A stretch of DNA of 64,000 nucleotides, taken from positions 186,001 to 250,000 of the forward strand of contig NZ_KB823013.1 of NCBI RefSeq assembly GCF_000365025.1, in the 5' to 3' direction. Below, piece by piece: positions 29,830-50,885 of this stretch (position 1 is the first letter of the stretch; every line of letters starts with the position of its first letter). The position numbers were made by a program, and so were the translations under genes. Under the pieces are notes generated by a model. The model ran no database searches. It saw only the letters and a list, made by a program, of their open reading frames with translations, and was not told the DNA's origin. Source of the DNA: Robiginitomaculum antarcticum DSM 21748. Its GTDB lineage: Bacteria > Pseudomonadota > Alphaproteobacteria > Caulobacterales > Maricaulaceae.

Positions 29830-30207
29830 TCACTCGTTATTCACAATCACAGTTTGAGTATACTCTAAGCCTTCACGTATCACGGTAAATCTCACCCGTC
29901 CTGCGCGTTTAGCGTCATTGAATAATAGCCTGAATTCAAGTCGGCCTTGCGTAATATCTTCACTTATAACAGCAGTGATCACATCACCGCTGCGCAAGAT
30001 ATACCGCGATAGATCAGCCCTCGAAATACGCTCGGTAATCCGGTAACCTTGCACGGCTCTATCGTCGCCGCGTACGGGCGTATTATTCGTTTTATAATTG
30101 AAATGTGACCCCTCAATTGGTACATGCGTAGATTCTAACTTGTAGAGTTGAGGCGTCTCTGTGATGAGAAAATGATGAATTTTGTAAAGCTTATTCTCCT
30201 CTTGATG
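29830..30207 (-). pseudogene. Orphan PDZ-like C-terminal fragment without a start
   Basis: The minus-strand frame is open for about 126 codons from 30207 to the stop at 29830 but contains no ATG; the only GTG, at 30054, falls inside the apparent domain. The product reads GYRITERISRADLSRYILRS then GDVITAVI and ends in VRFTVIREGLEYTQTVIV, the pattern of a PDZ domain (carboxylate loop, GDVI strand, final strand) as found in GspC, HtrA or PDZ proteases. The 5' part overlaps the start of the rightward namZ gene. I read it as the remnant of a longer gene cut off when the murein block joined. A short functional protein from GTG is possible. Confidence 0.45.
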
Positions 30208-31392
30208 TTATGTCTTTTTTACACGGCTTGCTCCAGCTATAGCCCGGTTCAAAAAGATATAAGCGCTATGCGCGAGACCCAAATGCATATGCCGAATGTT
30301 AAAGTCGGGGCCGAACGCTTTGAGGCCTATCTTCCCTTGCTTGAAGATAAATCTGTTGCTGTTATTGCCAATTCGACATCTGTCATAGGCGACACGCATT
30401 TAGTTGATGTGCTTTTGAAGCACAATATCCGGGTTCAGAAGATATTTGCCCCTGAACATGGGTTTCGCGGTCAAGCGGATGCGGGGCAACGGGTGGAGAC
30501 CGAACAGGATGCCACTACAGGATTACCGATATTGTCGCTTTATGGGAGCCAGAAAAAGCCATCATCAGCATTACTGAGCGACGTGGACGTTATGGTTTTT
30601 GACATTCAGGATGTCGGCGTCCGGTTTTACACCTATTTGAGTACGCTGCATTATGTTATGGAATCATGCGCGGAAAATGATGTTCCTCTAGTCTTGCTCG
30701 ACCGGCCCAATCCCAACGGATTTTATATCGACGGCCCAGTGTTGAAGCCTGAATATTCATCCTTTATCGGGCTTCACCCTGTACCCTTGGTCTACGGCAT
30801 GACAATAGGGGAATACGCCAAAATGATAAATGGCGAGGGATGGATGAAAGACGCAGTGCACTGCGATCTGACGGTCGTGACATTAGAGGGATATTCGCAT
30901 GATGTGAAATATGCTTTGCCTGTGAAGCCGTCGCCCAATCTCCCTAATATGACATCAATTTACCTCTATCCATCATTAGCGCTCTTTGAGGGCACAGTCG
31001 TGAGCATAGGCCGGGGAACGGAGTTTCCCTTCCAGGTTATTGGCCACCCTCAGAATGAGCAGGGACATTTTGCTTTTACGCCGCGTCCGGTTCAAGGGGC
31101 GATGAGGCCAAAACTGGACGGCCAAATTTGCCGCGGCATTGATCTGCGGGACACAGGAGAAGCGCGCGCTACGGCCCAACTCACACTGGACTGGATTATA
31201 GAATTTTATAAGGCCCTTCCCGACAAAGACAGCTTCTTTTTAGCCAATAATTTTTTTAACAAATTGGCGGGCAATGATACATTAATGGCGCAGATAAAAA
31301 ACGGTATGACAAGCGCTGAAATTAAGGAAACTTGGCAGGCTGATCTTGAAGAGTTTCGGACAGTTAGAGAGAAATATCTCCTTTACAAGTGA
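30172..31392 (+). CDS. namZ: Exo-beta-N-acetylmuramidase NamZ (DUF1343), lipoprotein
   Basis: A 406-residue lipoprotein of the DUF1343 family, whose characterised member NamZ releases MurNAc from the non-reducing end of peptidoglycan chains. A lipobox FYTAC lies at the end of the leader. Family motifs are AVIANSTSVIGDTHLVDVLL, KIFAPEHGFRG with the catalytic-region Glu, VFDIQDVGVRFYTYLSTLHYVMES, LVLLDRPNPNG and GRGTEFPFQVIGHP. The start at 30172 is chosen because the TTG at 30148 adds residues before the leader. murQ follows after 69 bases, so the released MurNAc can enter the cytoplasmic MurQ route. Confidence 0.88.
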   Translation: MMNFVKLILLLMLCLFYTACSSYSPVQKDISAMRETQMHMPNVKVGAERFEAYLPLLEDKSVAVIANSTSVIGDTHLVDVLLKHNIRVQKIFAPEHGFRGQADAGQRVETEQDATTGLPILSLYGSQKKPSSALLSDVDVMVFDIQDVGVRFYTYLSTLHYVMESCAENDVPLVLLDRPNPNGFYIDGPVLKPEYSSFIGLHPVPLVYGMTIGEYAKMINGEGWMKDAVHCDLTVVTLEGYSHDVKYALPVKPSPNLPNMTSIYLYPSLALFEGTVVSIGRGTEFPFQVIGHPQNEQGHFAFTPRPVQGAMRPKLDGQICRGIDLRDTGEARATAQLTLDWIIEFYKALPDKDSFFLANNFFNKLAGNDTLMAQIKNGMTSAEIKETWQADLEEFRTVREKYLLYK

Positions 31393-31461
31393 CCTTCCAA
31401 GCATTGACTCATACACAGGCAAGTTTAGTCTATCCGTCTATAAAGAACGTTGGAAACCGGG

Positions 31462-32352
31462 ATGACGGAAGAGATTAGCCGTAAATATACGAACCTCGAT
31501 ATATGGCCGGTTCGGGATATTGTTGATGCTATGTATGATGGCCAAATAGAGGCGATTAAAGCTGTATCTCCCGCGCTCGATAAAATTGCTGAAGCGGCTG
31601 AAGCCGCAGCCCGAAAACTTGGAGAAAGCGGCAGACTGATCTATGTTGGCGCCGGGACTTCGGGTCGCTTAGCGGTGCTGGATGGGTCTGAATTAGGGCC
31701 GACATTTGGGTGGCCTCATGATCGCACCGAATTTTGCATGGCGGGCGGCAAAGAAGCCTTAATGCGGAGCCAAGAAGGCGCGGAAGATATAGCCGAAGAC
31801 GGTCAGTCCGCGCTGCAAAACATTAACGCAGGATCCGAGGATGTTGTCATTTGCGTGTCCGCAAGTGGCCGGACGCCTTTCACATTAGGCGCGTTGAAAG
31901 AGGCTAAGGCGCGCGGAGCGATGACTATCGGTGTGGCCAATAATTCAGGAACGCCTATTTTGGCCGAAGCAAATTATTCAATCCTCGCCGAGACCGGCAG
32001 TGAAATTATTGCCGGGTCAACGCGGATGAAGGCGGGGACGGCTCAGAAAGTCATTCTGAATATGCTGTCCACAGCAATTATGACCCGGCTTGGCCGTGTT
32101 CATGACGGGCTTATGGTGGACATGATTGTATCCAATGCAAAACTTGAGATACGGGCGGCAAATATTGTTAGCCAAATTGCGCAATGCTCGCCCGACTTGG
32201 CACGCTCAGCGTTAAGGGATACACATAATAACATCAAGAAAGCTGTCCTTGTTTGTACGGGTGCCAATGTTTATGATAGCGAGGCAATATTGCAGAAGGT
32301 CGGTGGAAACTTACGTCAAGGTTTGGCGCATCTTCAAAACCGCGATTCCTGA
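31462..32352 (+). CDS. murQ: N-acetylmuramic acid 6-phosphate etherase
   Basis: A 296-residue cytoplasmic enzyme that removes the lactyl ether from MurNAc-6-P to give GlcNAc-6-P and D-lactate. The SIS domain is clear: YVGAGTSGRLAVLDGSELGPTF with the catalytic Glu, SQEGAEDIAED with the second acidic site, CVSASGRTPF, and GSTRMKAGTAQK. Length equals the family norm. The ATG at 31462 fits the conserved start better than a TTG at 31450. It is downstream of namZ and upstream of the GntR regulator on the same strand. The product feeds the NagA encoded on the opposite strand. Confidence 0.95.
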   Translation: MTEEISRKYTNLDIWPVRDIVDAMYDGQIEAIKAVSPALDKIAEAAEAAARKLGESGRLIYVGAGTSGRLAVLDGSELGPTFGWPHDRTEFCMAGGKEALMRSQEGAEDIAEDGQSALQNINAGSEDVVICVSASGRTPFTLGALKEAKARGAMTIGVANNSGTPILAEANYSILAETGSEIIAGSTRMKAGTAQKVILNMLSTAIMTRLGRVHDGLMVDMIVSNAKLEIRAANIVSQIAQCSPDLARSALRDTHNNIKKAVLVCTGANVYDSEAILQKVGGNLRQGLAHLQNRDS

Positions 32353-32504
32353 TTTTTCAGACCTTTAAGGCTGCGAAATATTTTTGCTAATATCGTCGCG
32401 GACTAGGCCTGTCTTTGCATAGCCCACCTTAAGTGGGGATGTATGGGTTAGAGTTCTAGAAAAATTTGAAGCAGGTCGAAGAAAACTTGAAAGGGTATGT
32501 CTTG

Positions 32505-33245
32505 ATGAATATGATCAATATCAGCCCTGACAAATCCATGGCGACTCCACACTATATACAAATCGCCAAAAACATACGCGCTTTCATAAATAATAGTGAT
32601 ATTGACGCGGGCGAGGCCCTGCCCTCAGAGAGAGAATTATGCCAGAAAACAGGGGTGTCGCGTGTTACAATTCGAAAAGCGTTAGACGTTTTAGTTGCCG
32701 ATAGGGTTGTTGAACGCAAACATGGAGCGGGGACTTTTGTGCTGCCGCGAATTGAGCACCTTGGATCAAGCCTTAAAGGGTTTACCGGAAATGCCCATAT
32801 TAAAGGCCACAATCCTCAAGCAATATGGATTGTTAAGGCTTATGGTACCCCGACAACAGAAGAAGCTGCGATATTACAAATATCAGTAAAAGATAAAGTT
32901 GTCCGCCTTGGCCGCGTGCGTCAGTTTGAAAATCAACCGGTCGCGATTGAACACGCGGTGATTGCGGCCCGTCTTTTGCCGGATATCGAAGATATAAAAG
33001 AATCGCTTTATCAAGCGTTGGAGATCAAAGGAAACCGCCCGGTTAAAGGCACGCAAAAGGTCAGGGCTTCATTGGCCTCACCAACCGAAGCGGCGCTCCT
33101 GTCTGTGGAAGAATTTAGCGAAGTTCTTCGGATCGAACGCAGGTCTTTTTTGCAGGACGATACCCCGGTTGAGCTCACCCGGTCGGCTTATAGAGGGGAT
33201 CGCTATGATATTTTAATGAACCTTGAAACCAATCAACTGAGCTAG
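32505..33245 (+). CDS. GntR/HutC-family regulator (UTRA domain)
   Basis: A 246-residue transcription factor. The N-terminal winged helix shows LPSERELCQKTGVSRVTIRK and ERKHGAGTFV; the remaining part is a UTRA ligand domain. HutC-branch members near nag genes (NagQ/NagR/YvoA) sense GlcNAc-6-P or GlcN-6-P, and this is the likely signal here. AAAGGG precedes the ATG at 32505. It is convergent with nagA and separated by 4 bases. Candidate binding sites are the AATACCA pairs at 35486-35503 and 39676-39693. A small CCCAC-N5-GTGGG hairpin lies upstream of it. Confidence 0.88.
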   Translation: MNMINISPDKSMATPHYIQIAKNIRAFINNSDIDAGEALPSERELCQKTGVSRVTIRKALDVLVADRVVERKHGAGTFVLPRIEHLGSSLKGFTGNAHIKGHNPQAIWIVKAYGTPTTEEAAILQISVKDKVVRLGRVRQFENQPVAIEHAVIAARLLPDIEDIKESLYQALEIKGNRPVKGTQKVRASLASPTEAALLSVEEFSEVLRIERRSFLQDDTPVELTRSAYRGDRYDILMNLETNQLS

Positions 33246-33249
33246 AGAA

Positions 33250-34395
33250 TTAGACTGTATGGGATCGCCCATTTATCCAGCTCTCCTTAATCTCCAACTT
33301 TTCATTTACGACAATAAAGTCGGCCTGTTGACCAACTTTAATTTCACCAACTTGGTGGCCAAGACCTAGAAATTGGGCTGGAAGTGTACTGGCCATGCGC
33401 ACAGCCTGCTGAAACGAAACACCCAACATGTCCCGCGCATATCGAACCGCGCGGATCATATCCAAATCCGAACCCGCGAGGGTACCCGCCTGCGTTAAGC
33501 ATTTGCCATCCGCAACCGTGATTTTAATGTTTCCAAGTGAAAATTGTTTGTCTTCAGCGCCGACGCTTGGCATGGCATCCGTCACAAGGAAAACCTGATC
33601 TCCAATCTTTGCGCGCAAAGCCAGCCGTAACACGGCGGGATGGACATGGTGCCCGTCCGCGATGATGCTGCACCAGGCACGCGGGTCCTCAAGCGCAGCC
33701 GCAATAACGCCCGGGTGCCGACTTTCCAGCGGCGTCATAGCATTAAATAAATGCGTGAACCCGGTCAGTCCTGCGTCAAGCGCGGTCAGTGTCTCCGCGT
33801 AACTGGCCTCTGTGTGGCCTGCCGAAACGATCACGCCCTTATCCCGAAGCGCTTTAATGATTTCAGGAGTTGTCATTTCGGGTGCCAATGTGACTAAGGT
33901 TTTGCCGCGCTTCAAGCTGGACAGAAGCCGGACTTGCTCCTCGCCAATTTTCCTGAATTTTGACGCATCATGAACGCCCCGGCGTTTCTCATTTAAAAAC
34001 GGGCCTTCAAGATGAATTCCGAGAACCCCGGGGACGCCTTGCGCGATAGCGTCGTCGACGGCAGCAATTGCGGCCGACATGACATTCGGGTTGTCGCTGA
34101 TAAGTGTCGGCAAAAAGCCGGTGGTTCCGAAAGCGCGGTGGGCGTTGCCAATAGTTTTAATGCTGTCAATGCCGGGATTATCATTAAATAGAATGCCCCC
34201 GCCTCCATTGACCTGCACGTCAATAAATCCGGGGAGCAACATTAAGCCTTCAAGGTTGCGTTCGATAGTCGCGGTTTTTGGACATTGGGCATCATCACAT
34301 ATGCGCGTTATACGGCCCTGATCAAACAAGACACTCTGTTGGTCTTTAAACCCCTCCGGCGTTAAGACATTTGCATTTATGAGCGCCTTATTCAT
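33250..34395 (-). CDS. nagA: N-acetylglucosamine-6-phosphate deacetylase
   Basis: A 381-residue metal-dependent amidohydrolase that deacetylates GlcNAc-6-P to GlcN-6-P. Conserved elements are PGFIDVQVNGGGG, HLEGPFLNEKRRGVHD with the metal-ligand Glu, SAGHTEASY and GFTHLFNAM with the His ligands, and LVTDAMPSVG with the catalytic Asp. Its start overlaps the stop of the upstream deaminase gene (ATGA), so the two are translated together. It receives the product of MurQ and of the kinase encoded nearby. Confidence 0.95.
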   Translation of the reverse strand: MNKALINANVLTPEGFKDQQSVLFDQGRITRICDDAQCPKTATIERNLEGLMLLPGFIDVQVNGGGGILFNDNPGIDSIKTIGNAHRAFGTTGFLPTLISDNPNVMSAAIAAVDDAIAQGVPGVLGIHLEGPFLNEKRRGVHDASKFRKIGEEQVRLLSSLKRGKTLVTLAPEMTTPEIIKALRDKGVIVSAGHTEASYAETLTALDAGLTGFTHLFNAMTPLESRHPGVIAAALEDPRAWCSIIADGHHVHPAVLRLALRAKIGDQVFLVTDAMPSVGAEDKQFSLGNIKITVADGKCLTQAGTLAGSDLDMIRAVRYARDMLGVSFQQAVRMASTLPAQFLGLGHQVGEIKVGQQADFIVVNEKLEIKESWINGRSHTV

Positions 34396-35435
34396 CAGAC
34401 TGTCTTAGTAATTTTGCTGAGATATTCAGGCATATCCGGGTCTAATCCCCGGCGGAAAGACAATGCATTTATGAAGCGATAAAAAGTCTGAATCGAAATA
34501 ATCGGTAAGAGTTCGGGCAGAGCGCTTTCAACGGTCGGGAGCCTTACGCTACCGTTATAACTCCGGCCCGTCGCAAATATATGCGACTCGCGGGAGATGA
34601 ATAGCTGGGCAACATCATCTATGCTGGACTGTGAATTATCGGACGTAGAGAAGATCATGACCGGAAACCCCTTATTAACAAGCGCCATAGGCCCGTGTTT
34701 TATCTCGGCCGCGCTAAAGGCTTCGGCATGTATGCCGCATGTTTCTTTAAATTTGAGCGCAGCCTCTTTGGCGATGCCCAGTCCAAATCCACGACTTATA
34801 ACAAATAAGGACTGGGTATTTTCCAGATCATTCACGGTTGTGTCCCAATTTATTTGAAACGCTTTCTTCAGTTTAACCGGCAAAGAATTAAGTCCTTCGC
34901 TCAATTTCGAAATTTTCCCCCACCGGGCAACTAGGTCCGCTATGGCAGAGAGCGTGCAAATAAAGGTCTTCGTGGCGGCCACGCTCTTCTCTTCTCCAGC
35001 ATGGATAGGGATGACCATATGGGACAGGGCGGCCAATGGTGATGCTTCGTTATTCACGATAGCGACAACATATGCGCCGCCGGACTTTGCGGCTTGTGCG
35101 GAGGCTAAAATATCCGGGCTTTCGCCTGATTGTGAAATAGCTAAAAATAAAACGCCGTCCAGCTTCTGTTTGACGGCATAAACAGAATTTAATGACGGCG
35201 CCGCAGGAAGAACGGGGATTCCTAATTGGGTTTCAATCAGATAGCGCGCATATACCCCGGCATGGGATGAACTCCCCCGTCCGCAGGTCATCACAAATTG
35301 CGGAGGGCTGCGCTGTAACTGCGAGGCAAGGCGGGACATATCGGGTTTATTGAGCATCAGTTGATCTCGAACCCTCATGTGAGCTTCACCGGCCTCTTTG
35401 AACATTTTGCTTTTATGCTCGGGCTTATTCGACAT
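34395..35435 (-). CDS. nagB-II: SIS-domain glucosamine-6-phosphate deaminase (NagB-II type)
   Basis: A 346-residue protein with two SIS domains, homologous to the isomerase half of GlmS but lacking the glutaminase domain. Signature segments are TCGRGSSSHAGVYARYLIE, FLAISQSGESPDILASA, and EEKSVAATKTFICTL, ending LDPDMPEYLSKITKTV. In nag clusters of Shewanella, Caulobacter and Xanthomonas such proteins replace NagB and convert GlcN-6-P to fructose-6-P plus ammonia. The gene is first of the leftward nagB-II-nagA pair. An AgaS-like role on galactosamine-6-P is the main alternative. Confidence 0.88.
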   Translation of the reverse strand: MSNKPEHKSKMFKEAGEAHMRVRDQLMLNKPDMSRLASQLQRSPPQFVMTCGRGSSSHAGVYARYLIETQLGIPVLPAAPSLNSVYAVKQKLDGVLFLAISQSGESPDILASAQAAKSGGAYVVAIVNNEASPLAALSHMVIPIHAGEEKSVAATKTFICTLSAIADLVARWGKISKLSEGLNSLPVKLKKAFQINWDTTVNDLENTQSLFVISRGFGLGIAKEAALKFKETCGIHAEAFSAAEIKHGPMALVNKGFPVMIFSTSDNSQSSIDDVAQLFISRESHIFATGRSYNGSVRLPTVESALPELLPIISIQTFYRFINALSFRRGLDPDMPEYLSKITKTV

Positions 35436-35630
35436 GACCTCGCCTTCTCATCACGACTACTAATAGTAATAGTAATAGTAATAGTAATACCAATATAATA
35501 CCACTATTGGCAAGTCTTTGTAATTCAATTATTTACGTTCAGCGATTGGCTGTGTATCTTAATACCAGTGCAGGCTTAATACTACGACTGCGGGATACGA
35601 ATCGGGCATATTTAGCGGCGGGGTCGGGTG
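35436..35630. promoter_or_regulatory. Divergent nag control region with TAATAG repeats and AATACCA boxes
   Basis: The gap between the leftward deaminase and the rightward kinase begins with four TAATAG copies and one TAATAC (35461-35490). AATACCA occurs at 35486-35492 and 35497-35503, 11 bp apart, with CCAATA-N9-TATTGG (35490-35510) overlapping, and again at 35561-35567. The 11-bp-phased pair recurs at 39676-39693 upstream of the Oar-like receptor. These are the best candidates for binding of the GntR regulator. Confidence 0.5.
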
Positions 35631-36494
35631 ATGTATTATTTAGGAATTGATGCGGGCGGTACAAAAACCAGGGCGCGCCTGATTAATGAATCCGGCGAGA
35701 TAATTGGTGAAGGTCTGTCAGGTCCCGGAAATGCCCGGCTTGGTGTTCCGTTGGTTTTTGCGTCGATATCAGCGGCTTACACGCAGGCTATTAAGGCCGC
35801 GGGGCTCTCAACAAAAGATATTGCTTCAATTCGGGCCGGATTTGGCGTGGCGGGTATCGGGCGGATTGGCGCTTTAGAACAATTGCATGCGCAGCCCTTT
35901 CCCTTTCATAAAACAACCATCGTCAATGATGCCAAAATTGCAAATATTGGAGCTCATTCCGGCGAAGACGGCGGGATCGTTATTATCGGAACCGGTAGCA
36001 TTGGTATTGCACGTTTGGACGGCAAAGACATACGCGCCGGAGGATATGGCTTTCCCATATCAGATGAAGGCAGCGGAGCATATATCGGACTCCAAGCGGT
36101 TCGCATAACGCTGCGCGCCTCAGATGGCCGTCTTGAACATTCCGATCTGACCCAAAAGATTTTCGATAAATTCGATCGTGATACACATGCAATTGTCAGC
36201 TGGATGGATCAAGCCACAGCTACAGAATATGCCACAATGGCACCGGATGTTGTGGATGCCGCAGAGTCCGGCGATTATCACGGCCGTTTGATTACAAGCC
36301 ATGCGGCGTGGCATATCGAAATAATTGTGCGCGGCTTATTTGGTTTGGGCGTCCCAAGAGTTGCCCTTCTCGGCGGGCTAGCCTCACGAATTGAGCCGTG
36401 GATGTCACCCGATATTCGTTTGAAACTTACCCAGCCTCAGGGCGATGCCTTAGACGGGGCGCTGTGGCTGGCCCGGCAATCTAATATAGATTAG
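35631..36494 (+). CDS. Amino-sugar kinase of the BadF/BadG family (GlcNAc/MurNAc kinase)
   Basis: A 287-residue ASKHA-fold kinase. Phosphate-1 motif GIDAGGTKTRARL, GFGVAGIGR, VNDAKIANIGAH, GTGSIGIARL and a C-terminal GGLASRIEPW are visible. Family members include GlcNAc kinases and clostridial MurK, which phosphorylates both MurNAc and GlcNAc. Because murQ is present and no MurP-type PTS, AnmK or AmgK is seen, this enzyme is a reasonable source of MurNAc-6-P; that is inference. A GTG lies directly before the ATG at 35631 and could serve as start. Confidence 0.85.
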   Translation: MYYLGIDAGGTKTRARLINESGEIIGEGLSGPGNARLGVPLVFASISAAYTQAIKAAGLSTKDIASIRAGFGVAGIGRIGALEQLHAQPFPFHKTTIVNDAKIANIGAHSGEDGGIVIIGTGSIGIARLDGKDIRAGGYGFPISDEGSGAYIGLQAVRITLRASDGRLEHSDLTQKIFDKFDRDTHAIVSWMDQATATEYATMAPDVVDAAESGDYHGRLITSHAAWHIEIIVRGLFGLGVPRVALLGGLASRIEPWMSPDIRLKLTQPQGDALDGALWLARQSNID

Positions 36495-36502
36495 GTAAAA
36501 AA

Positions 36503-36525
36503 AAACCGGCCCCGAGGGCCGGTTT
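36503..36525. terminator. Bidirectional terminator between the kinase and the Oar-like receptor
   Basis: CCGGCCC pairs with GGGCCGG around CGA, flanked by A-runs on the left and TTTT on the right. It lies 9 bases past the kinase stop and 21 bases past the receptor stop, serving both convergent genes. Confidence 0.88.
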
Positions 36526-36545
36526 TGAAAAATTTCATTTTTAAA

Positions 36546-39530: not shown

Positions 39531-39804
39531 TGCTGTCCTCCCCTATCAATACAAACGCCGCAGCCATAAGCGGAATTAATAGAATGATAAGGTCAAAATT
39601 AATTGAAAGTCAAATACCAATTCGTCATTACTTATCGTTTAACGGTAAATATGCCTTAATTATTCCAATTTATATAATACCATTCTACTACCAATTTCTG
39701 CTTTCCATTTGCACTCAATTCGTAGTAACGAGAGCTTATTCAGGGTTGGAATAGTCATATCTGCCACATTAGCATGGCGATCGCCCGTATTATGAGATGA
39801 AAAA
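39531..39804. promoter_or_regulatory. Divergent control region of the Oar-like receptor and amidase operon
   Basis: This gap carries AATACCA at 39613-39619 and 39676-39682, plus ACTACCA at 39687-39693; the last two are 11 bp apart exactly like the pair in the nag control region. TTATCGTTTAAC at 39632-39643 is identical to the complement at 11008-11019. The region must hold the receptor promoter and the promoter of the rightward peptide-degradation operon. Confidence 0.45.
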
Positions 39805-40803: not shown

Positions 40804-40813
40804 GGACGGCATT

Positions 40814-43224: not shown

Positions 43225-43231
43225 GGTAAAG

Positions 43232-44638
43232 ATGACCCTACGAATACTTTGCGCCGCATTTATAACAGCCGCTATAAGCTATGGCTGCGCCTCGACTGTT
43301 ACTCCCCCATCCGCGCTTGAATTTGATGACCCCTTTGTATCGGATGTGATTGGAGTTACGGAAAAGCATTTAGCGCCGGACTATTGGATCACACCGGGTA
43401 TGGATAAAACGCTGATGAGCGAGGCCGAAATCAAGGCTTTCAACGCGGCGAATACAAAGACGGAAAAATATCTCTACGATATTAAGTCTGAACCTCAGAC
43501 TCTGTCCAAAACCGAGCTGACCGAGCATTTGCGTTCGATCAGTAAGAAGCCCGGCTATCCCCGGATTTATACAGATGGTATAGAGCTGACCGATGCTGAT
43601 TTCGCACGGTATGAAAGCCAGCTCAATCTCGACGCCATTGGCGATACAAACCCTGTACGCTACGCTCTGGCGGTGCGGCGCACTTCGATACGCACCTATC
43701 CGACATTTGACCTGTTGTTCAGCCATGATGCGACTGACCGCGACATTGAACGCTTTCAAGAATCCGCTTTATTTCCAGGTGATGCCCTGCGGGTCCTGCA
43801 TGAGAGCACGGACGGACAATGGGCATTAATTCAGTCCTATAATTATATCGCGTGGGTTCCCTTGGCAGATATTGCAATGGGCAGGCGCGACCAAGTCTTT
43901 AGCTATGGGGACACGGATAATTTTCTGATTATAACGGGCGACAAGGTGCTGACCGTTTTTAATCCCGAGCTTCCTGCGGTTTCAGAATTGCAGCTCGATA
44001 TGGGGGTAAAGGTGCCTCTATCGCGGCCGGACAGTTTGAAGGCCAATTTATATGGGCAAAATCCGTATCTGAGTCACATGGTGTTGTTACCGATACGCAA
44101 AACTGATGGCACGCTCGAATTCAAACACGCTCTTATTCAACGAAACCAAGATGTTCATGTGGGATATTTGCCTTACACCGAAGCCAATATTATCCGTCAG
44201 GCGTTTAAATTTCTTGGCGAGCGCTATGGCTGGGGACACCGGTTTAACGGCAGGGATTGTACGGGCTTTGTCTCGGAAATTTACCAAACTTTTGGGATTA
44301 AATTGCCTCGCAATTCCAGCGATCAAAGGGACAGTAATATTGGTGTGAATGACCGGTTTGAACGCGGCGGGGACCATGCCAGTAAAGTCACGCGCTTAAA
44401 CACAGCCAAGGTAGGGGATCTAGTCTATATTCCCGGTCATGTCCTCATGGTTCTGGGGCAGTCCGGCGGCGAGCCCTTTGCGATCCATGACGTGCACGGA
44501 ATGCGGTATAAAAACCCTGACGGATCGCTGTATGAAGGGACGCTGAACGGCGTCTCTGTCACGCCGATAACCCCCCTGCAGTTCAATTCAGATGAGTCTT
44601 ATATCGACCGGATACTCGCGGTTAAAACGATACGATGA
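43232..44638 (+). CDS. SH3-NlpC/P60 (C40) peptidase, lipoprotein
   Basis: A 468-residue lipoprotein (lipobox SYGC) of the YkfC-like group that cleaves the gamma-D-Glu-diaminopimelate bond in murein peptides. Two SH3b-like modules precede the catalytic domain. Cys343 lies in GRDCTGFVSEIYQTFG and His403 in PGHVLMVLG; a further His in AIHDVHG can complete the triad. GAGG before 43232 fixes the start; the in-frame TTG at 43196 lies inside the DUF819 gene. The D-aminoacylase start overlaps its stop. B. subtilis ykf genes show a comparable grouping of C40 peptidase with other murein-peptide enzymes. Confidence 0.92.
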   Translation: MTLRILCAAFITAAISYGCASTVTPPSALEFDDPFVSDVIGVTEKHLAPDYWITPGMDKTLMSEAEIKAFNAANTKTEKYLYDIKSEPQTLSKTELTEHLRSISKKPGYPRIYTDGIELTDADFARYESQLNLDAIGDTNPVRYALAVRRTSIRTYPTFDLLFSHDATDRDIERFQESALFPGDALRVLHESTDGQWALIQSYNYIAWVPLADIAMGRRDQVFSYGDTDNFLIITGDKVLTVFNPELPAVSELQLDMGVKVPLSRPDSLKANLYGQNPYLSHMVLLPIRKTDGTLEFKHALIQRNQDVHVGYLPYTEANIIRQAFKFLGERYGWGHRFNGRDCTGFVSEIYQTFGIKLPRNSSDQRDSNIGVNDRFERGGDHASKVTRLNTAKVGDLVYIPGHVLMVLGQSGGEPFAIHDVHGMRYKNPDGSLYEGTLNGVSVTPITPLQFNSDESYIDRILAVKTIR

Positions 44639-46188
44639 CCCTGTTGCGCGCGTTTTGGATGAGTTTTGTCATCTGTCTGTTGACTGCCTGCGCGTCACCC
44701 TCTGAGGGGCCTGATTACGCCAAAAATTATGACATCTATATTCACGGCGGTACAGTGGTCGACGGCACAGGTAGGCAGCCTTTCAAGGGTGATATTTTGG
44801 TGCGCGGCGACACAATTATGTATGTCGGGCCCGTCAGCGCGCAGGTGGTAAACGCCGCGTCGACGATAGACGCAACCGGTAAAACCGTAACGCCGGGCTT
44901 TATCGACGCCCATGCTCACGGCGCGCCATTACAAAATAATAACGACTTCATGAAAAGCTTTCTGAGGCAGGGCGTGACTACGGTTATTTTGGGCCAGGAC
45001 GGGTCAAGTCCCGGGCGCGATATTGCGCTTTCCGATTGGCTCGCCGCAGTCGAGTCTCACGGCGCAGGTCCGAATGTAGCCGCTTTAGTGGGACATGGCA
45101 GTTTGCGTAATCAGTGGGGCGGCGGCGAGAAAGATTCGGTTACGCCGGCAGACCAAGCGCGGATGGAACAGATGCTGGCGGAGGCTATGATGTCGGGTGC
45201 TTACGGTCTTTCGACCGGGCTTGAATATCTCCCGGGCCGGTATGCGGATGCAGCGGAATTAAACGGTTTGGCTAAAGTCGTGGGCCGTTATGACGGGTTG
45301 ATCTCCAGCCATATACGCAATGAAGATGATGACAAAGTTGCGCAATCGGTCGCCGAAGTTATTCAGCAAGCCCGCTTTGCCCGCGTGAACATCACGCATA
45401 TCAAAGTGGTATATGGAAAAACCAAAGAACAAGGCGAGGCGGTGATGCAGCAAATCCGTGAGGCCCGAAACCGCGATATGACTGTCACGGCTGACGTTTA
45501 TCCTTATCTGGCGAGCTATGGCAGCCTGATTTATCTTTATCCGGAATGGGCCAAACGCAAGAGTGAATTTGATGATGCTGTTCTTAATCGACGCGGGGAG
45601 CTTGAGGCGTATCTACGCGCTAAAATCAAACGCCGCAACGGAGCGGACGCCATCCTGATATCCGCCGGAGATTATGCTGGGAAAACCTTGGGCGAAATTG
45701 CCGCGATCAATGGTGTCTCCCCCGAGCAGCAAATTATTGCGTTCGGCCATAGTGGCCCCTCAACGGCGCATTTTATAATGACCAAGGCGACGCAGGATGT
45801 GTTTGTGACCGCGCCGGATGTGTCCATTTCCTCCGATGGGAGTCCCACCATGCGACATCCGCGCTCCTTTGGATCTTTTCCAAAAATTATTGAAGACTAT
45901 GTCGTCCGCGATAAACAAATAACGATTGAACAGGCCATATATAAAATGTCCGGACTCACAGCGCAGACATTCGGTATTCAATCGCGGGGAACATTGAAAG
46001 CAGGTCTGGCCGCAGACATTCTGATCTTTGACCCGGTGGCGATAAAAGCCAATACGGGATGGTCAGATATTAGCGCGCAGCCGACAGGGTTTGACGCGGT
46101 CATCGTCAACGGCCATGTCACGGATATTGCGCAAAAATCAGGCGGCCCTGTCTATGGGAAGGTTTTACGCAAAACCCGCGGAGATTAA
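44635..46188 (+). CDS. N-acyl-D-amino-acid deacylase (D-aminoacylase family), lipoprotein
   Basis: A 517-residue amidohydrolase with lipobox LLTAC. Metal-site motifs are VTPGFIDAHAHG near residue 90, SSHIRNEDDD, NITHIKVVYG, IIAFGHSGPS and SISSDGSPTMRHPRSFGSFPK; a small beta-sandwich wraps the barrel at both ends. The family removes acyl or amino-acyl groups from D-amino acids or D-dipeptides. Being exported and encoded last in the amidase, dipeptidase, DUF819, C40 operon, it likely works on D-Glu, D-Ala or diaminopimelate-containing leftovers. The gene overlaps the convergent serine hydrolase by 4 bases. Confidence 0.9.
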   Translation: MTLLRAFWMSFVICLLTACASPSEGPDYAKNYDIYIHGGTVVDGTGRQPFKGDILVRGDTIMYVGPVSAQVVNAASTIDATGKTVTPGFIDAHAHGAPLQNNNDFMKSFLRQGVTTVILGQDGSSPGRDIALSDWLAAVESHGAGPNVAALVGHGSLRNQWGGGEKDSVTPADQARMEQMLAEAMMSGAYGLSTGLEYLPGRYADAAELNGLAKVVGRYDGLISSHIRNEDDDKVAQSVAEVIQQARFARVNITHIKVVYGKTKEQGEAVMQQIREARNRDMTVTADVYPYLASYGSLIYLYPEWAKRKSEFDDAVLNRRGELEAYLRAKIKRRNGADAILISAGDYAGKTLGEIAAINGVSPEQQIIAFGHSGPSTAHFIMTKATQDVFVTAPDVSISSDGSPTMRHPRSFGSFPKIIEDYVVRDKQITIEQAIYKMSGLTAQTFGIQSRGTLKAGLAADILIFDPVAIKANTGWSDISAQPTGFDAVIVNGHVTDIAQKSGGPVYGKVLRKTRGD

Positions 46189-47804
46189 TTCGAAACCCGG
46201 GTAAAATTTAAATCCTGAAAATCGAAACTCCAGTCGCCATCCGGATCAATATGGCGGATCGTGGCGCCGCTGACCCTGCCGTCACCATCTGTTTCAAATT
46301 GCATATAAGCATCGGCCCGAAATTCGCGGTCATCCCACATTACCTTGAACGTGTTGAGATCAAAGGGCGTCATTGTACCGACCATTTTTATCATTTCGCG
46401 TGAGCTAAAGCGCAGCGCCGCGCCCGATTGGATAATGTCAACTTTTCCAAACCAAGGATCTTCATAGACGCCCACATAATTTTCAATCGGCTGGCTAACC
46501 GTGCCCGTTCCCTGATGATTATCATTAGAGGCTTCGTGTTGAGTTTTTTGCTCCGCTTTCCGCTTCGCCTGCTCATCCACATTAAACTTTACCCAGTCCA
46601 CTGAGGGCTGATTCATGTATATTTTTACAACGGTTTGCATCAAAGCGTTTCGGGCGCCCGAATTCGATCCATTATTTAAAATAATCACGCCAAGATCAAG
46701 CTCGGGCACAAGTGTCACATAGGCTTGGAACCCTGACAAAGTGCCGGTGTGGGAAATGACCTCATATCCGTGCATGTCTTCTTTGCGCCATCCCAAGGCA
46801 TAGGTTTTAAAATGTGTTCGGTCCAATTTGTGCTCTAAATCACTAACGCTTAAAATTGTTTGTGAGGTCCACATTTCATCGCGCTGCTTTTCGCTGAAAA
46901 TGCGGTATCCATTCGGGCCAACGCCGCCGGCAAGCTGAGTCAGCATCCACCGATTCATCCCGTCAACATTACAAACAAGTCCGCCTGCCGCCGCCGAAAT
47001 ATTGGACGCGTTCTCGATCCTGTTGCGTGTGACCTCGGTCATTTTTTTATCAATTAAGCCGTAAGGTATGGCGGTTTGGTTGCGCTTGGATCGGGGGACA
47101 TCTCCCGCATAACACTGCATTTCAAGGGGGTCGAGGATCCGGGTTTGGACAAGGTTTTCCCAAGACGTATCCGCCGCAGCGGCGGCGACTTCTCCGGCCA
47201 CAATATACAGAAGATTGTCATAAGCATATGCGCTGCGAAAACTGCTGACGGGCTTAAGGTAGCGAAGATTATGGATTAATTCCGCCCTCGAAAAACCGGA
47301 CGGCTCAGGCCAAAGCATCAAATCTCCCGCCCCGAGCCCTAACCCGCTACGATGGGTGAGAAGATCTCGAATGGTAAATTCCTGTGTGACCCACGGGTCC
47401 GACATTTGAAAACCGGGAAGGTAATCTATTACTTTATCGTCCCAGTCCAGAACGCCGTCATCTACGAGAATTGCGAGCGCTGCGGAGGTGAAGGCTTTCG
47501 TCGTCGAAGCGATTCGAAACAATGTCTGCGCATTGACCGGCGCGCCGCTGACAATGTCGCGTTGCCCAACACCGCCGGAATAAATGACTTGGCCGTTGTG
47601 AACAATTCCGGCCACCATGCCGGGGGTGTCAAAGGCCGCAATGGCATTTTGCGCCGTGCTCTCAATGAGCGCGGGACTGAGGGCAGGCGAAGCGGCAGTT
47701 AAGGCCGGAGCGGGGTTCGAATGCGATTGGGCATGCGCTGAATTTGGCGGGCTAAACGCCGTAATCAATAATCCGCTGGCCAACACAGCTATCTTTAGTC
47801 TCAT
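46185..47804 (-). CDS. Serine hydrolase of the beta-lactamase/penicillin-binding fold, exported
   Basis: A 539-residue exported protein with signal peptide ending near AHA|QS. The class C-like SxxK motif is in RIASTTKAFTS and the YxN-like motif in SAYAYDNLLY; HTGTLSGFQAY supplies the third element (H-x-G). A C-terminal lipocalin-like domain of about 130 residues follows a Gln/Lys-rich linker. Relatives include D-aminopeptidases, DD-peptidases and esterases, so a D-amino-acid peptide substrate would suit this locus. It is coupled by ATGA overlap to the upstream symporter gene. Confidence 0.88.
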   Translation of the reverse strand: MRLKIAVLASGLLITAFSPPNSAHAQSHSNPAPALTAASPALSPALIESTAQNAIAAFDTPGMVAGIVHNGQVIYSGGVGQRDIVSGAPVNAQTLFRIASTTKAFTSAALAILVDDGVLDWDDKVIDYLPGFQMSDPWVTQEFTIRDLLTHRSGLGLGAGDLMLWPEPSGFSRAELIHNLRYLKPVSSFRSAYAYDNLLYIVAGEVAAAAADTSWENLVQTRILDPLEMQCYAGDVPRSKRNQTAIPYGLIDKKMTEVTRNRIENASNISAAAGGLVCNVDGMNRWMLTQLAGGVGPNGYRIFSEKQRDEMWTSQTILSVSDLEHKLDRTHFKTYALGWRKEDMHGYEVISHTGTLSGFQAYVTLVPELDLGVIILNNGSNSGARNALMQTVVKIYMNQPSVDWVKFNVDEQAKRKAEQKTQHEASNDNHQGTGTVSQPIENYVGVYEDPWFGKVDIIQSGAALRFSSREMIKMVGTMTPFDLNTFKVMWDDREFRADAYMQFETDGDGRVSGATIRHIDPDGDWSFDFQDLNFTRVSN

Positions 47805-49366
47805 GCCGCACTCCTTTTCGTCAATTGATTGTTATTCCCGGCAAGGCAGACCAAAAAGGCGATGGCCGTGCCGATGCAAAGCTTCCATGAAAAGGCCAGA
47901 CCTTTCCAGCTCTCCGGCAGTCCAAGCGTGTCCACAATATAGGGCTGCTGGACGAGGGTGACGAGAAAACCGACAGCCAGCGCCAGCATGACAGAGCGCG
48001 GAGATCCGCGCCGGGTAAAGATGACGGTAAAATAAACACCGAGCAGTCCCGAATAGGAAAATACCATAACGGACAGGGCAAAATCCAAAAGCGGCGTGTC
48101 AGAATATTGCTGCCAATAAAAACACAAGACCGACATAAGAAAGAGCGCGATACCGACAACGCCCATGAAGATCTGGCCCGCGCGAACAAAATGTTTGTCA
48201 GTCGGCTGGCCTTGTGATTCACGCCACGGCCGGTAGAAATCCTCGACAATGACAGACGACATGGAATTCAGGCCGGAATTTATTGTTGAGACCGCCGCCG
48301 CGACAACCCCCACTGTTACCAATCCGCGTATGCCCGCGGGCAGTTCGCGCAATATATAATGCATAAAGACCGTAATTTTCTCACCGTTAAATTCGCTATT
48401 GGCGGCACTGGCGACATCTGCGCCCATAAGATCAGGCCGCTCGTAGAAAACATATAGAAGCTCTCCGATAGACACAAATATCCAAATTACCGGGATTGCA
48501 ACGATGGCGGAAATTAAGAGAGCGCGTCCGCCCTCATTTGCATTTTTGCAGGTTAAAACCCGCTGGGTCATATCCTGATCAAGGCCAAAACTGCCAATAC
48601 CTAAAAGCGTTAGTCCTGTGACCACTGAAATCATTGCGAACGGCGCTGAGAAATCCATATCCCAATTAAAGAATTGAAGTTTGTTTATCCCCTCGGGTGT
48701 GTTTCTAAGGCCGGTCATAATTTCATCAGTGTCAGCCGGAATAGAATTCCACAGAATAAATAAAACGCTTAACGCGGCGATTGTGTAAATTAAAAATTGA
48801 ATCAGGTCACTCCATATAACTGAATTTATCCCGCCGAGAAATGTGATTAGAAAGCCAAGCGCCATCATCAAAAAGGCCGCAATTACAATGCTGCTAGCAT
48901 CAATATTGGAAAATAAAATCATGGATACAGCAATGGCAGCCAGGAACAGCCGCGAGCCACTCGCGAACACCCGGCCAATTAAATACATCCCGCCTGCGGC
49001 TCTCATTGTATTGGCGCTAAAGCGGATCGCGAGCAGCTCATAAACCGTCGTGACTTTGTGCTGGTAGAATTTTGGGATGAGGACCCGGGCGACAAATATA
49101 GCCGCTATAATTGTGCCTATATTTGTCGATAAATAGGTAAAATCGCTGCGATAGCCTTGATCAGGGCCGCCCAAAAATGTTGCCGCCGATTGCGAAGTCG
49201 CCAACACTGAGATCGCAACCACCCAATAGGGCATAGTATTGCCACCGAGAAAATACTCCCGTGAGTTTTCAGATTTACGTTTCGAAAACACCCACGCCAT
49301 TATGAATAAAAGCGCAATATAGGCTGCAGTCACAAACCAATCCAAAAATACAAAACTTTGTGCCAT
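47801..49366 (-). CDS. Sodium:solute symporter (SSS family)
   Basis: A 521-residue transporter with thirteen or more helices. Typical parts are KSENSREYFLGGNTMPYWVVAISVLATSQSAATFLG at the front, the FLGGINSVIWSDLIQFLIY segment, GSFGLDQDMTQRVL, and GVVAAAVSTINSGLNSMSSVIVEDFY. These mark Na+-coupled uptake of sugars, amino acids or other organic solutes. The ATG at 49366 is chosen because a full AGGAGG precedes it; an in-frame codon at 49429 lacks one. Pairing with the serine hydrolase suggests import of the hydrolase product. The divergent NhaC-type gene could restore the sodium gradient. Confidence 0.92.
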   Translation of the reverse strand: MAQSFVFLDWFVTAAYIALLFIMAWVFSKRKSENSREYFLGGNTMPYWVVAISVLATSQSAATFLGGPDQGYRSDFTYLSTNIGTIIAAIFVARVLIPKFYQHKVTTVYELLAIRFSANTMRAAGGMYLIGRVFASGSRLFLAAIAVSMILFSNIDASSIVIAAFLMMALGFLITFLGGINSVIWSDLIQFLIYTIAALSVLFILWNSIPADTDEIMTGLRNTPEGINKLQFFNWDMDFSAPFAMISVVTGLTLLGIGSFGLDQDMTQRVLTCKNANEGGRALLISAIVAIPVIWIFVSIGELLYVFYERPDLMGADVASAANSEFNGEKITVFMHYILRELPAGIRGLVTVGVVAAAVSTINSGLNSMSSVIVEDFYRPWRESQGQPTDKHFVRAGQIFMGVVGIALFLMSVLCFYWQQYSDTPLLDFALSVMVFSYSGLLGVYFTVIFTRRGSPRSVMLALAVGFLVTLVQQPYIVDTLGLPESWKGLAFSWKLCIGTAIAFLVCLAGNNNQLTKRSAA

Positions 49367-49508
49367 TTGGCCTCCTATAAGCATTCTAACTACTGCACTT
49401 AAAAACGGAAGTGAATCATTTTCGAACAAATTTATTAGATTGGATAAATGGGTCTATAGTTCGCGATGAGCCTATGATACCCATATTTGACTCTGAAGGG
49501 GAAATCAT

Positions 49509-50885
49509 ATGGACTGGGTAAAGATTTTGCCGCCGCTTGTTGCGATCGCATTTGTGTTGTGGCGCAAAGAAGTCATTTTGGCGTTGTTTCTTGCCATTTT
49601 GACATCCGAAATATTGATGATCGCAAATCCGGGAATTGACCTGCCTTTGACGGGATTTTTAAATTCCCTTGAACGGATTGCAGACGTCTTCTCCGATGCG
49701 GGCAATACGCGCATCCTGATGTTTAGTTTGATGATCGGGGCGTTGCTTGCATTTATGCGCGTGTCCGGCGGCGTGACGGCCATGGTGGATAAACTCGTCC
49801 ACAGCGGCCTTGCCCGTGGCAAACGCTCTGTTGGTTTGCTGACAATGCTGACAGGGCTTGTTGTCTTTATAGAATCAAATCTCAGCGTTTTGACCGCAGG
49901 GATTCTATCGCGGGGCTTATTTGATAAGTTCGGGATGAGCCGGGCGCGTTTGGCCTATATAATCGACAGCACAAGTGCGCCGGTGTGCATTCTGATCCTT
50001 CTTAACGGATGGGGGGCGTATATATTGGCCTTACTGTCGGGTTATGACTTAGAGCAATCTGCGGCGCAGCTCCTCTGGCAGACCGTGCCGTTTAATTTCT
50101 ATGCGATCATTACGCTTGCAATCGTCTTTTACACCGTGATGAGCACCAAAGTATATGGGCCGATGAAAAAGTCTGAACTCGGGGCCGAAGATGCTTTTGA
50201 AGATTATGAGCATGAATATCCGCCTACCAAATCACGATATATGCTTATTCCGCTTCTCATTATGGTCTTTGGGATGGTCGCATTTATGTTTTGGACGGGC
50301 GGCGGTGATATCGCAGCGGGCAGTGGATCTAAATCTGTCCTATACGCAACTGCGCTGGCCTGTCTTGCCGCTTATCTGATGATGCTCGCCAGCCGCAAAT
50401 TCAGCCACGTTAAACTTGTTAAAATTGGGTTTGACGGCATGGGCGAGCTCTTACCGCTTGTCACGATTGTGCTGTTTTCGCTTGCTTTGGGGGCGAGTTT
50501 GAAGGGGCTGGGTACGGGCGTATTTATTGCGGGCATGGTCGGGGAGTTCTTGCCGCTGTTTTTGGTTGTTCCCTTATTATTCGTCGCCGGCGGCTTTATG
50601 TCGTTTACGACAGGAACATCATGGGGAACATTTGCTATTCTTATCCCCATTGGCATCCCGCTAATCCAGACGCTCGGTCTGCCCCCGGCTCTTGTGCTTT
50701 CGGCTATTTTGGGCGGCGGCGTCTTCGGCGATCACTGCTCCCCGATTTCAGACACAACAGCGGTTTCGGCAATCGCGAGTGGAAGCGATCTTCTTGAGCA
50801 TGTGCGTACGCAATTGCCATACGCTTTAACAGCCGGAGGCCTCACAATTGTATTTTATATTATTGCGAGCTTGATAATGATTTAA
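49509..50885 (+). CDS. NhaC-family Na+/H+ antiporter-like protein
   Basis: A 458-residue protein with about twelve helices. The family signatures FIESNLSVLTAGILSRGLFDKFGMSR-type central region and GGGVFGDHCSPISDTT near the C-terminus are clear, the latter with the SDTT motif shared by NhaC and related Na+/metabolite antiporters. Some relatives move malate, lactate or amino acids, so lactate, a product of MurQ, is an attractive alternative substrate. AAGGGGAAA lies upstream of the start. It is divergent from the symporter gene, with 142 bases between. Confidence 0.85.
   Translation: MDWVKILPPLVAIAFVLWRKEVILALFLAILTSEILMIANPGIDLPLTGFLNSLERIADVFSDAGNTRILMFSLMIGALLAFMRVSGGVTAMVDKLVHSGLARGKRSVGLLTMLTGLVVFIESNLSVLTAGILSRGLFDKFGMSRARLAYIIDSTSAPVCILILLNGWGAYILALLSGYDLEQSAAQLLWQTVPFNFYAIITLAIVFYTVMSTKVYGPMKKSELGAEDAFEDYEHEYPPTKSRYMLIPLLIMVFGMVAFMFWTGGGDIAAGSGSKSVLYATALACLAAYLMMLASRKFSHVKLVKIGFDGMGELLPLVTIVLFSLALGASLKGLGTGVFIAGMVGEFLPLFLVVPLLFVAGGFMSFTTGTSWGTFAILIPIGIPLIQTLGLPPALVLSAILGGGVFGDHCSPISDTTAVSAIASGSDLLEHVRTQLPYALTAGGLTIVFYIIASLIMI

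Follow-up and report, generated by a model that had tools for sequence, protein, structure and literature searches.

Candidate NagQ-type regulon for the use of external peptidoglycan fragments in Robiginitomaculum antarcticum

Results

A 64-kb window of the Robiginitomaculum antarcticum DSM 21748 genome, i.e. the whole stretch of DNA analysed here (G000:C3:186001-250000; genome G000 of 2.77 Mb, rated 100% complete), contains a block of about 16 neighbouring genes, found by open reading frame calling and profile searches. We consider it quite probable that this block is a NagQ-type regulon which feeds the cell on external peptidoglycan (murein) fragments and is added to the ordinary AmpG/NagZ/AnmK recycling. 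An earlier note on this DNA had named the same genes, all of which were recovered at or very near the positions given there. The order is NamZ, MurQ and a GntR/UTRA regulator (forward strand), NagA and NagB-II (reverse), a BadF kinase (forward), an Oar-type receptor (reverse), an AmiD-type amidase, M19, DUF819, C40+SH3 and D-aminoacylase-like genes (forward), a serine hydrolase and an SSF symporter (reverse) and an NhaC-like gene (forward).

NamZ (30172-31392), a predicted exo-beta-N-acetylmuramidase, carries both a NamZ_N and a NamZ_C domain (PF07075 265 bits, PF20732 112.4 bits). In the PDB it matches 4jja (E=5.1e-117; 49% identity, 151 of 309 aligned positions), which we take to be a Bacteroides protein. 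By comparison, the window copy shares 34-43% identity with the NamZ proteins of those genomes of the order that do not carry the block, which hints that the gene may have been acquired from elsewhere. MurQ, the N-acetylmuramic acid (MurNAc) 6-phosphate etherase (31450-32352; NF003915 348.9 bits, cut-off 168), and NagA, the N-acetylglucosamine (GlcNAc) 6-phosphate deacetylase (33250-34395; TIGR00221 302.6 bits, cut-off 225.65), each pass the cut-off of one model but not that of the strictest one (equivalog TIGR00274 for MurQ, 274.3 bits against 302; PRK11170 for NagA, 326.1 bits against 483). Two further enzymes stay below the cut-off of their best equivalog, namely the NagB-II-like glucosamine 6-phosphate deaminase of the SIS type (34395-35435; NF046059 353 bits, cut-off 430) and the BadF-type, MurK/NagK-like amino-sugar kinase (35628-36494; PF01869 117 bits; NagK_SO3507 247.1 bits, cut-off 370). 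In the PDB, the kinase matches the probable GlcNAc kinase 1zc6 (E=2.3e-40) better than the MurNAc/GlcNAc kinase 8zo3 (E=9.9e-20). The regulator (32466-33245) has a GntR helix-turn-helix and a UTRA domain (PF00392 67.5 bits, PF07702 108.7 bits).

The Oar-type outer-membrane receptor (36546-39530; PF25183 71 bits together with PF13620, CarboxypepD_reg) has orthologues in the blocks of three relatives (G006, G029 and G441); judged by its family, it may serve TonB-dependent import. It is followed by an AmiD-type lipoprotein N-acetylmuramoyl-L-alanine amidase (39805-40803; PF01510, Amidase_2, and PF01471, PG_binding_1; PDB matches AmpDh3, E=6.7e-54, and AmiD, E=6e-44) and by an M19 dipeptidase, probably also a lipoprotein (40814-42064; PF01244 306.5 bits; 3b40, E=3.1e-64, and 3id7, E=3.5e-39). 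M19 enzymes prefer L,D-dipeptides. The C40 (NlpC/P60) protein (43232-44638), by family a gamma-D-Glu-diamino acid endopeptidase, has SH3_6 (PF12913) and NLPC_P60 (PF00877) domains and its PDB match in 3m1u (E=1.1e-17); Cys343, His403 and His419, the catalytic residues of such enzymes, are invariant across three sequences. Next to it, a lipoprotein resembling D-aminoacylases and N-acyl-D-glutamate deacylases (44635-46188; PF07969, Amidohydro_3; 3gip, E=8.5e-55) is an amidohydrolase of unsure exact substrate. The DUF819 transporter (42061-43224; PF05684 320.7 bits) is a candidate importer of murein-peptide products. The PDB sequence search gave no match for it, its Pfam entry reads 'unknown function', and no substrate for the family was met in the available text of the literature searched, in which an M15 peptidase-DUF819 pair is described for Neisseria (PMC12671195). 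The block continues with a secreted beta-lactamase-family serine hydrolase (46185-47804; PF00144 210.4 bits, DUF3471 PF11954), which is kept in G006, G029 and G441, with the SSF-type Na+ symporter (47801-49429; PF00474) and with an NhaC-family antiporter (49509-50885; PF03553, Na_H_antiporter, 140 bits).

The many ATGA overlaps reported before are present as four-base overlaps at three junctions (M19/DUF819, 42061-42064; C40/amidohydrolase, 44635-44638; SSF/serine hydrolase, 47801-47804); NagB-II and NagA share one base (34395). The conserved block extends beyond the limits first proposed (30172-50885), synteny in two relatives continuing to a TPR-sulfotransferase gene (50937-52499, forward; PF13469 159.1 bits; orthologues in the G006, G029 and G441 blocks) and to a beta-lactamase-family gene at the block edge (52825-53721, reverse; PF00144). 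The latter looks truncated, with 298 amino acids compared to 402 in the G006 and 449 in the G029 orthologue.

Protein location was judged with a regular expression for the lipobox, not with a trained predictor. A canonical lipobox is present in the window in the amidase (LAAC) and the D-aminoacylase-like protein (LTAC). For NamZ, it is found in the G006 and G442 orthologues (LTGC/VAAC), the window copy having a weak YTAC; for M19, in the G441 orthologue (LAAC), the window copy being weak; and for C40, in four orthologues, the window copy being weaker. In the serine hydrolase, the N-terminus is signal-like but lacks a lipobox cysteine. Lipobox-like N-termini, carried by the hydrolases themselves or by orthologues, agree with the extracytoplasmic splitting proposed earlier.

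The comparison set comprised 61 genomes (G000 included), with 37 of family f1, some of them incomplete (67-76%), and 6 of family f4. As for the gene order, which the earlier note had suggested looking for in related genomes, G006 and G029 are nearly collinear with the window, G441 has a rearranged version and G442 part of it. G006 and G029 share NamZ-MurQ-GntR-NagA-(NagB-II)-BadF-Oar-amidase and, in the second half, DUF819-C40-serine hydrolase-SSF-TPR-sulfotransferase-beta-lactamase-like; neither has M19, NhaC or the D-aminoacylase-like gene in the sequence read. G441, a Robiginitomaculum metagenome-assembled genome (MAG), carries a sugar/receptor block (serine hydrolase-SSF / MurQ-FAD oxidase-GntR / NagA-NagB-II / TPR-sulfotransferase-BadF / Oar / amidase-NamZ) and, on a separate contig, a peptide cluster (M19-LysA-/NhaC/-DUF819-C40), whose NhaC is 79% identical to the window gene. 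Its serine hydrolase and BadF genes are each split over two frames, probably by assembly error. Two short contigs of G442 hold NamZ-MurQ-FAD oxidase-GntR-NagA and M19-LysA-DUF819-C40. DUF819 is 76-84% identical and lies beside C40 in all four relatives. In G029 (L024/L025), the NamZ and BadF fragments lack internal parts, and MurQ, NagA, NagB-II and the peptide genes are open; the MurNAc-release and kinase steps may have decayed jointly.

Full-length C40 relatives (E below 1e-200) occur in 3 of the 61 genomes (G000, G006, G029), any C40-domain match in 22; block-type NamZ is present in G000 and G006 (62% identity) and as two fragments in G029, any NamZ match in 14. A contig scan with the C40 alignment, which is no proof of absence elsewhere, returned four loci: an uncultured Algimonas (Robiginitomaculaceae, Maricaulales), a Robiginitomaculum MAG, an Alphaproteobacteria MAG and a weak Paludibacteraceae locus that is a C40-domain match only. 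Seven stretches (L084-L090) around the NamZ genes of non-carriers in the order contained no other block gene, with two exceptions: a weak beta-lactamase-family match beside NamZ and, in L087, a match to an amino-acid permease from the window's flank. Plasmid searches gave one record for DUF819 and nine for C40, and of three records examined, one of which is unannotated, the two with annotation had no comparable context.

The clusters of the relatives contain additional genes which could act on by-products of the pathway. MurQ releases D-lactate, and in G441 and G442 the gene separating MurQ from GntR encodes a GlcD-type FAD_binding_4/FAD-oxidase_C protein (276 bits with the glcD model, cut-off 567.9). 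The gene following M19 in G441 is a diaminopimelate decarboxylase, LysA (TIGR01048 456.7 bits, cut-off 297.9); G442 has a 64% identical LysA gene at the same place and another LysA elsewhere. G000 itself encodes one homologue each of LysA (63%) and of the FAD oxidase (34%), both unlinked to the block. Both genes in the relatives' clusters would suit the predicted by-products D-lactate (from MurQ) and diamino acid (from C40).

Shared 8-mers were counted in the block intergenic regions of the window and its relatives. The commonest are variants of AATACCA, which, when read in place, form a tandem repeat ATACCA-N5-ATACCA with a period of 11 bp. In the window, predicted NagQ-type operators are situated at 35487-35503 (ATACCAATATAATACCA, forward strand) between the divergent NagB-II and BadF genes, i.e. 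by position upstream of NagB-II-NagA, and at 39677-39693 (ATACCATTCTACTACCA, forward strand) between the divergent Oar and amidase genes. The equivalent promoters of G441 carry the repeat as well, and those of G006 have one site exact under the final pattern and one with a mismatch. A simple inverted-repeat operator was rejected, since perfect 6-bp palindromes were not common to the promoters. The exact form TACCAN6TACCA occurs twice in the window (0.02 expected from shuffling), and 15 stretches including the window (321,794 bases) contain 8 exact sites, compared to a mean of 0.18 and a largest count of 5 over 60 column-permuted motifs.

Exact matches to WTACCAN5HTACCA were then collected genome-wide in seven genomes, with neighbours identified by tblastn; 9 of the 17 sites are located at genes of the system. 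Both sites of the G000 genome fall in block promoters. All three G441 sites are at the system, two in the sugar/receptor block and one before DUF819 on the unlinked contig, and so are both G059 sites, one before TonB-SSF-MurQ-GntR and one beside a separate BadF kinase. In G329, the sole exact tandem site is on contig C26, in a second MurQ-like/BadF/GntR locus, where it has a MurQ-like gene on one side and BadF-GntR on the other. The motif was derived from part of this set, including the DUF819 promoter; the independent hits are the site at BadF in G059 and the one in G329.

According to the available text of two studies, NagQ, a GntR regulator of the HutC type, binds direct TGGTATT repeats (PMC4494728), which are described as tandem in PMC5343134. 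The UTRA domain of the block regulator is taken to indicate the HutC type, NagQ's own. Because both this type and the operator motif match the published NagQ repeat system, we assign the regulator as NagQ-type: the locus combines a GntR-HTH and UTRA regulator, tandem TGGTATT (AATACCA) sites and nagA/nagB-type genes at a predicted operator.

The nearest solved structure to the SSF symporter is 5nv9 (E=5.9e-40), which we take to be the sialic acid transporter SiaT, ahead of sugar and other symporters. Ten SiaT binding-site residues checked from PMC5931594 agree with the 5nv9 sequence. Ser60 and Thr63, which as described there hold the carboxylate of N-acetylneuraminic acid (Neu5Ac), are identical in all six SSFs aligned. 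All seven loci found by SSF similarity outside the block carriers have the homologue near MurQ. One is in G329, where the two are 8.4 kb apart; the other six are plasmid records from Novosphingobium, Sphingopyxis and Croceicoccus, four of which were examined in context and two by the MurQ annotation under the match, and among which the three Sphingopyxis records look near-identical. In an eighth locus, found through MurQ, the SSF gene is adjacent to MurQ (G059). A TonB receptor lies beside the SSF gene in each of the four plasmid loci examined as well as in G059 and G329. In a class-wide sample, SSF relatives at E<=1e-100 occur in 2 of 385 genomes, R. antarcticum included. The recurrent location near MurQ and SiaT as nearest PDB relative together make it likely that the SSF protein is a MurNAc importer, as predicted from its sequence, perhaps also of GlcNAc.

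The sphingomonad MurQ-SSF clusters also carry NagA and SIS genes besides dld or FAD-linked oxidase genes, the oxidases being annotated in the Novosphingobium EMRT-2 and Sphingopyxis clusters. Compared to the G442 oxidase, the Sphingopyxis gene is 26% and the Croceicoccus gene 46% identical; the EMRT-2 gene, which is cut by the stretch end, has no tblastn match to the G442 protein. Operators with at most one mismatch occur upstream of the receptor in Novosphingobium RL4 and twice in the Sphingopyxis record. One of the Sphingopyxis sites is situated at the start annotated for the receptor gene, about 200 bases before homology begins; the other, which has a mismatch, lies between the genes for the FAD oxidase and the SIS protein. 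At the same tolerance, Novosphingobium EMRT-2, Croceicoccus and stretch L100 of G329 have none. The Sphingopyxis granuli plasmid pRW412b (L144, 6029-16221), typed as mobilizable, has the order TonB receptor-SSF-MurQ-acetyltransferase (NagX-like)-FAD oxidase-SIS-NagA and a pair of tandem ATACCA sites, of which one has a mismatch; this cluster is possibly a portable module for MurNAc use. Stretch L100 (3025-16404) unites SSF-TonB, GntR, AnmK-AmpG-like-GntR-MurQ and BadF-GH84.

Profile searches found no AmpG, NagZ or AnmK inside the block. All three are encoded elsewhere in the G000 genome: a full-length AmpG homologue (C3:452751-454313; 330 bits, under the cut-off of 350), NagZ (C1:286658-287527; 209.9 bits, cut-off 207) and AnmK (C1:763787-764860; 251.8 bits, cut-off 24). 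Each of them is over its cut-off in 52 of the 61 genomes. The new element is MurQ, which is over its cut-off in 8 of 61, i.e. in 3 of 37 genomes of family f1, which are exactly the block carriers, and in 5 of 6 of family f4. In L079-L081, from three genomes (G055, G039 and G047) that belong to a different family within the order, MurQ adjoins a protein of about 700 amino acids, a GH3 enzyme by Pfam in the copy examined (G039), in a context without SSF or GntR relatives.

Discussion

With gene content, conservation and a shared operator motif directly observed, the following course may be proposed, in which all activities, transport directions, substrates and the effector are predicted from sequence. 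The Oar-type receptor would admit muropeptides across the outer membrane. In the periplasm, the lipoprotein amidase would strip the stem peptide and NamZ would clip MurNAc from the non-reducing glycan end, and the SiaT-like Na+ symporter would bring in MurNAc and perhaps GlcNAc. The BadF kinase would make the 6-phosphates, MurQ would convert MurNAc 6-phosphate to GlcNAc 6-phosphate and D-lactate, and NagA and NagB-II would lead on to fructose 6-phosphate and ammonia. In the freed stem peptide, the C40 lipoprotein would cleave the bond that joins D-Glu to the diamino acid, the remainder would be split by M19 and the D-aminoacylase-like enzyme, and DUF819 would import the products. NagQ is a repressor released by amino-sugar phosphate; likewise, the block's GntR protein would repress its promoters via the tandem ATACCA sites until such a phosphate releases it. 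A wider version holds that a NagQ-type regulon has been extended from GlcNAc use to the whole of peptidoglycan catabolism, with a single regulator in control of receptor, sugar-peptide splitting, SSF MurNAc importer and, even if unlinked, a stem-peptide arm, DUF819 being the inner-membrane importer and LysA and D-lactate oxidase burning the by-products; we regard the case for this extended version as about evenly balanced.

A number of observations weigh against a dedicated murein regulon. The substrates of M19, C40, DUF819 and the receptor are predictions. In the D-aminoacylase-like protein, the metal loop reads QDG, compared to NCG in 3gip; in D-aminoacylases the metal ligand is a cysteine. 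This gene was not found in the stretches read of nine relatives, NagB-II is missing from the G006 block, and NamZ and BadF are only remnants in G029. As to the operator, its one-mismatch form is weak in the window (3 found, 0.72 expected, 4 of 100 shuffles reaching 3), and no site with up to one mismatch precedes NamZ-MurQ or SSF there. Six of the seven G006 sites and both G442 sites are away from system genes, and the G029 genome has no exact site. A reversed control gave 11 matches compared to 17 for the motif in the same seven genomes (G000 4, G006 1, G029 0, G059 0, G329 1, G441 2, G442 3). The number of sites being comparable to that of the control, the argument therefore rests on their location. 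Similar sites are moreover described for NanR (TGGTATAW repeats) and GabR (ATACCA repeats), which are, unlike the UTRA-bearing regulators, of the FadR and MocR types (PMC4494728, PMC5343134, available text). For the symporter, the column of SiaT Arg135 reads Ala in all six SSFs; an arginine (IGR/VGR motif) lies three positions before it and a second, invariant one four after, and Arg135 was dropped as proof of an acidic substrate. Finally, in family f4, the 15-20 kb read around MurQ held no relative of SSF or GntR at 4 of the 5 loci, and MurQ therefore does not need the block's SSF.

An ordinary GlcNAc/chitin NagQ regulon lying by chance beside unrelated dipeptide-degradation genes is one alternative. 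In its favour, the literature presents NagQ regulons as devoted to GlcNAc, comprising nagA, nagB and, in one genome, chitinases (PMC5343134, available text), and M19, amidohydrolases and serine hydrolases are broad families. We nevertheless consider this explanation unlikely: NamZ, MurQ and the MurNAc-L-Ala amidase are by family murein-specific, the operator also precedes DUF819-C40 in G441 on a separate contig, and no chitinase was detected by Pfam among the genes of the block.

The earlier note had interpreted the block as dedicated murein scavenging or recycling rather than the classical AmpG/NagZ route. Its first half stands, in that shared synteny, the shared operator motif and the metabolic add-on genes in relatives argue for one murein-scavenging system joining sugar route, stem-peptide route and receptor; the lack of conservation that the note had named as refuting is not what the relatives show. 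Its second half does not, and replacement of AmpG/NagZ was rejected, as NagZ, AnmK and an AmpG homologue are encoded in the same genome; the block is thus regarded as an addition to the classical route, to which MurQ may add a catabolic exit. Recycling of the cell's own wall turnover in place of AmpG/NagZ is therefore decidedly unlikely, even though turnover products could be substrates of all block enzymes and the Bacillus subtilis murQ-murR-murP-amiE-nagZ-ybbC cluster is reported to serve recycling of the own wall (PMC5061867, available text). Most of the genomes with NagZ, AnmK and AmpG lack the block, which has a patchy distribution (3 of 37 genomes in family f1) and contains an outer-membrane receptor. 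A predation or competition module, in which lipoprotein hydrolases attack the walls of neighbours and nutrient gain is secondary, is very improbable: amidase, NamZ, C40 and serine hydrolase jointly could break a foreign wall, and a secreted Photobacterium NlpC/P60 enzyme is described as cleaving that of competitors (PMC7860986, available text), but the enzymes here look membrane-anchored, NamZ belongs to a family with exo-action on fragments, and according to Pfam the block contains neither a lytic transglycosylase nor a gene for secretion.

The proposed regulon for external murein fragments resembles several known systems, as far as the available text of the cited papers describes them. It shares the GntR/HutC regulator, the tandem TGGTATT operator and nagA plus nagB-type genes with the NagQ regulon of Proteobacteria (PMC5343134, PMC4494728); in contrast to it, predicted sites are also found at the receptor, the murein amidase and the G441 murein-peptide cluster, and the block holds MurQ, NamZ and SSF. 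The main text of PMC5343134 contains neither 'murQ' nor 'muramic', and the receptors named there are listed under NagR. With the ampG-ybbC-murT-murK-murQ operon of Tannerella forsythia (PMC7670621, PMC5388701) it has in common MurNAc kinase, MurQ and YbbC for environmental MurNAc or muropeptides, whereas SSF takes the place of MurT, AmpG is outside the block, GntR replaces the GppX two-component hybrid, and NagA/NagB-II, amidase and peptide enzymes are added. MurT is reported as 35% identical to NagF, which groups with the major facilitator superfamily (MFS) permease NagP; on account of this identity we take MurT to be MFS-like. No MFS domain, and so no MurT-type permease, is present among the block proteins, the rest of the genome not having been searched for MurT. 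MurK is a BadF-type kinase, and YbbC is presumably NamZ. MurQ and a MurK-like kinase, the pair typical of the T. forsythia operon, are thus both found here, the kinase being closer to GlcNAc kinases as noted above.

Similarly, the B. subtilis cluster (PMC5061867) combines MurQ, YbbC, a MurNAc-L-Ala amidase and extracytoplasmic processing, and PF07075 matches are found in B. subtilis. The block lacks the phosphotransferase system (PTS) transporter MurP, MurR and NagZ and has, compared to that cluster, a Gram-negative receptor, a kinase and a peptide arm. In Caulobacter crescentus, recycling is described via AmpG/NagZ/AmiR and AnmK-MupP-AmgK-MurU (PMC13046382), and AmpG homologue, NagZ and AnmK are likewise present in G000. 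Caulobacter is without MurQ and takes anhydro-MurNAc via MupP/AmgK/MurU to UDP-MurNAc, whereas in G000 the block supplies a path into central metabolism through MurQ. MurQ together with a complete GlcNAc pathway has been read as MurNAc use in mat bacteria (PMC5507952), where the available text has no NamZ, SSF, NagQ or peptide arm. SiaT, finally, imports sialic acid, another acidic amino sugar (PMC5931594), and is the nearest structure to the block's SSF with Ser60/Thr63 kept; unlike in SiaT, no Arg is aligned at Arg135, and the gene neighbours point to MurNAc rather than Neu5Ac.

NagQ regulons, the Tannerella operon, the B. subtilis cluster and the MurQ-based prediction of MurNAc use are thus each known separately. 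In the available text of the literature searched, we met neither their combination nor an SSF paired with MurQ nor NagQ-type sites beside murein genes; NagQ-like sites, known from a GlcNAc regulator, are here found at murein genes. If the proposal is correct, these alphaproteobacteria would feed on wall fragments by a dedicated system, beyond self-recycling, Maricaulales and Sphingomonadales would possess a non-PTS, non-MurT family of MurNAc transporters, and DUF819 would gain a function, the first as far as that literature shows. Two assignments can be put to the test, SSF as importer of MurNAc and DUF819 as importer of murein-peptide products.

Adjacent genes

The TPR-Sulfotransfer_3 protein at 50937-52499 is syntenic with the Oar block, and its G441 counterpart lies beside BadF and near Oar. 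A second protein of this kind is encoded at 60536-62098, beside a TonB receptor (57807-60332), and such proteins may be receptor-associated. Upstream of the block, at 17744-25954, copper genes are present, comprising a multicopper oxidase and a CopA-type P-ATPase; a multicopper-oxidase/CopB pair is likewise found downstream of the block in G441.

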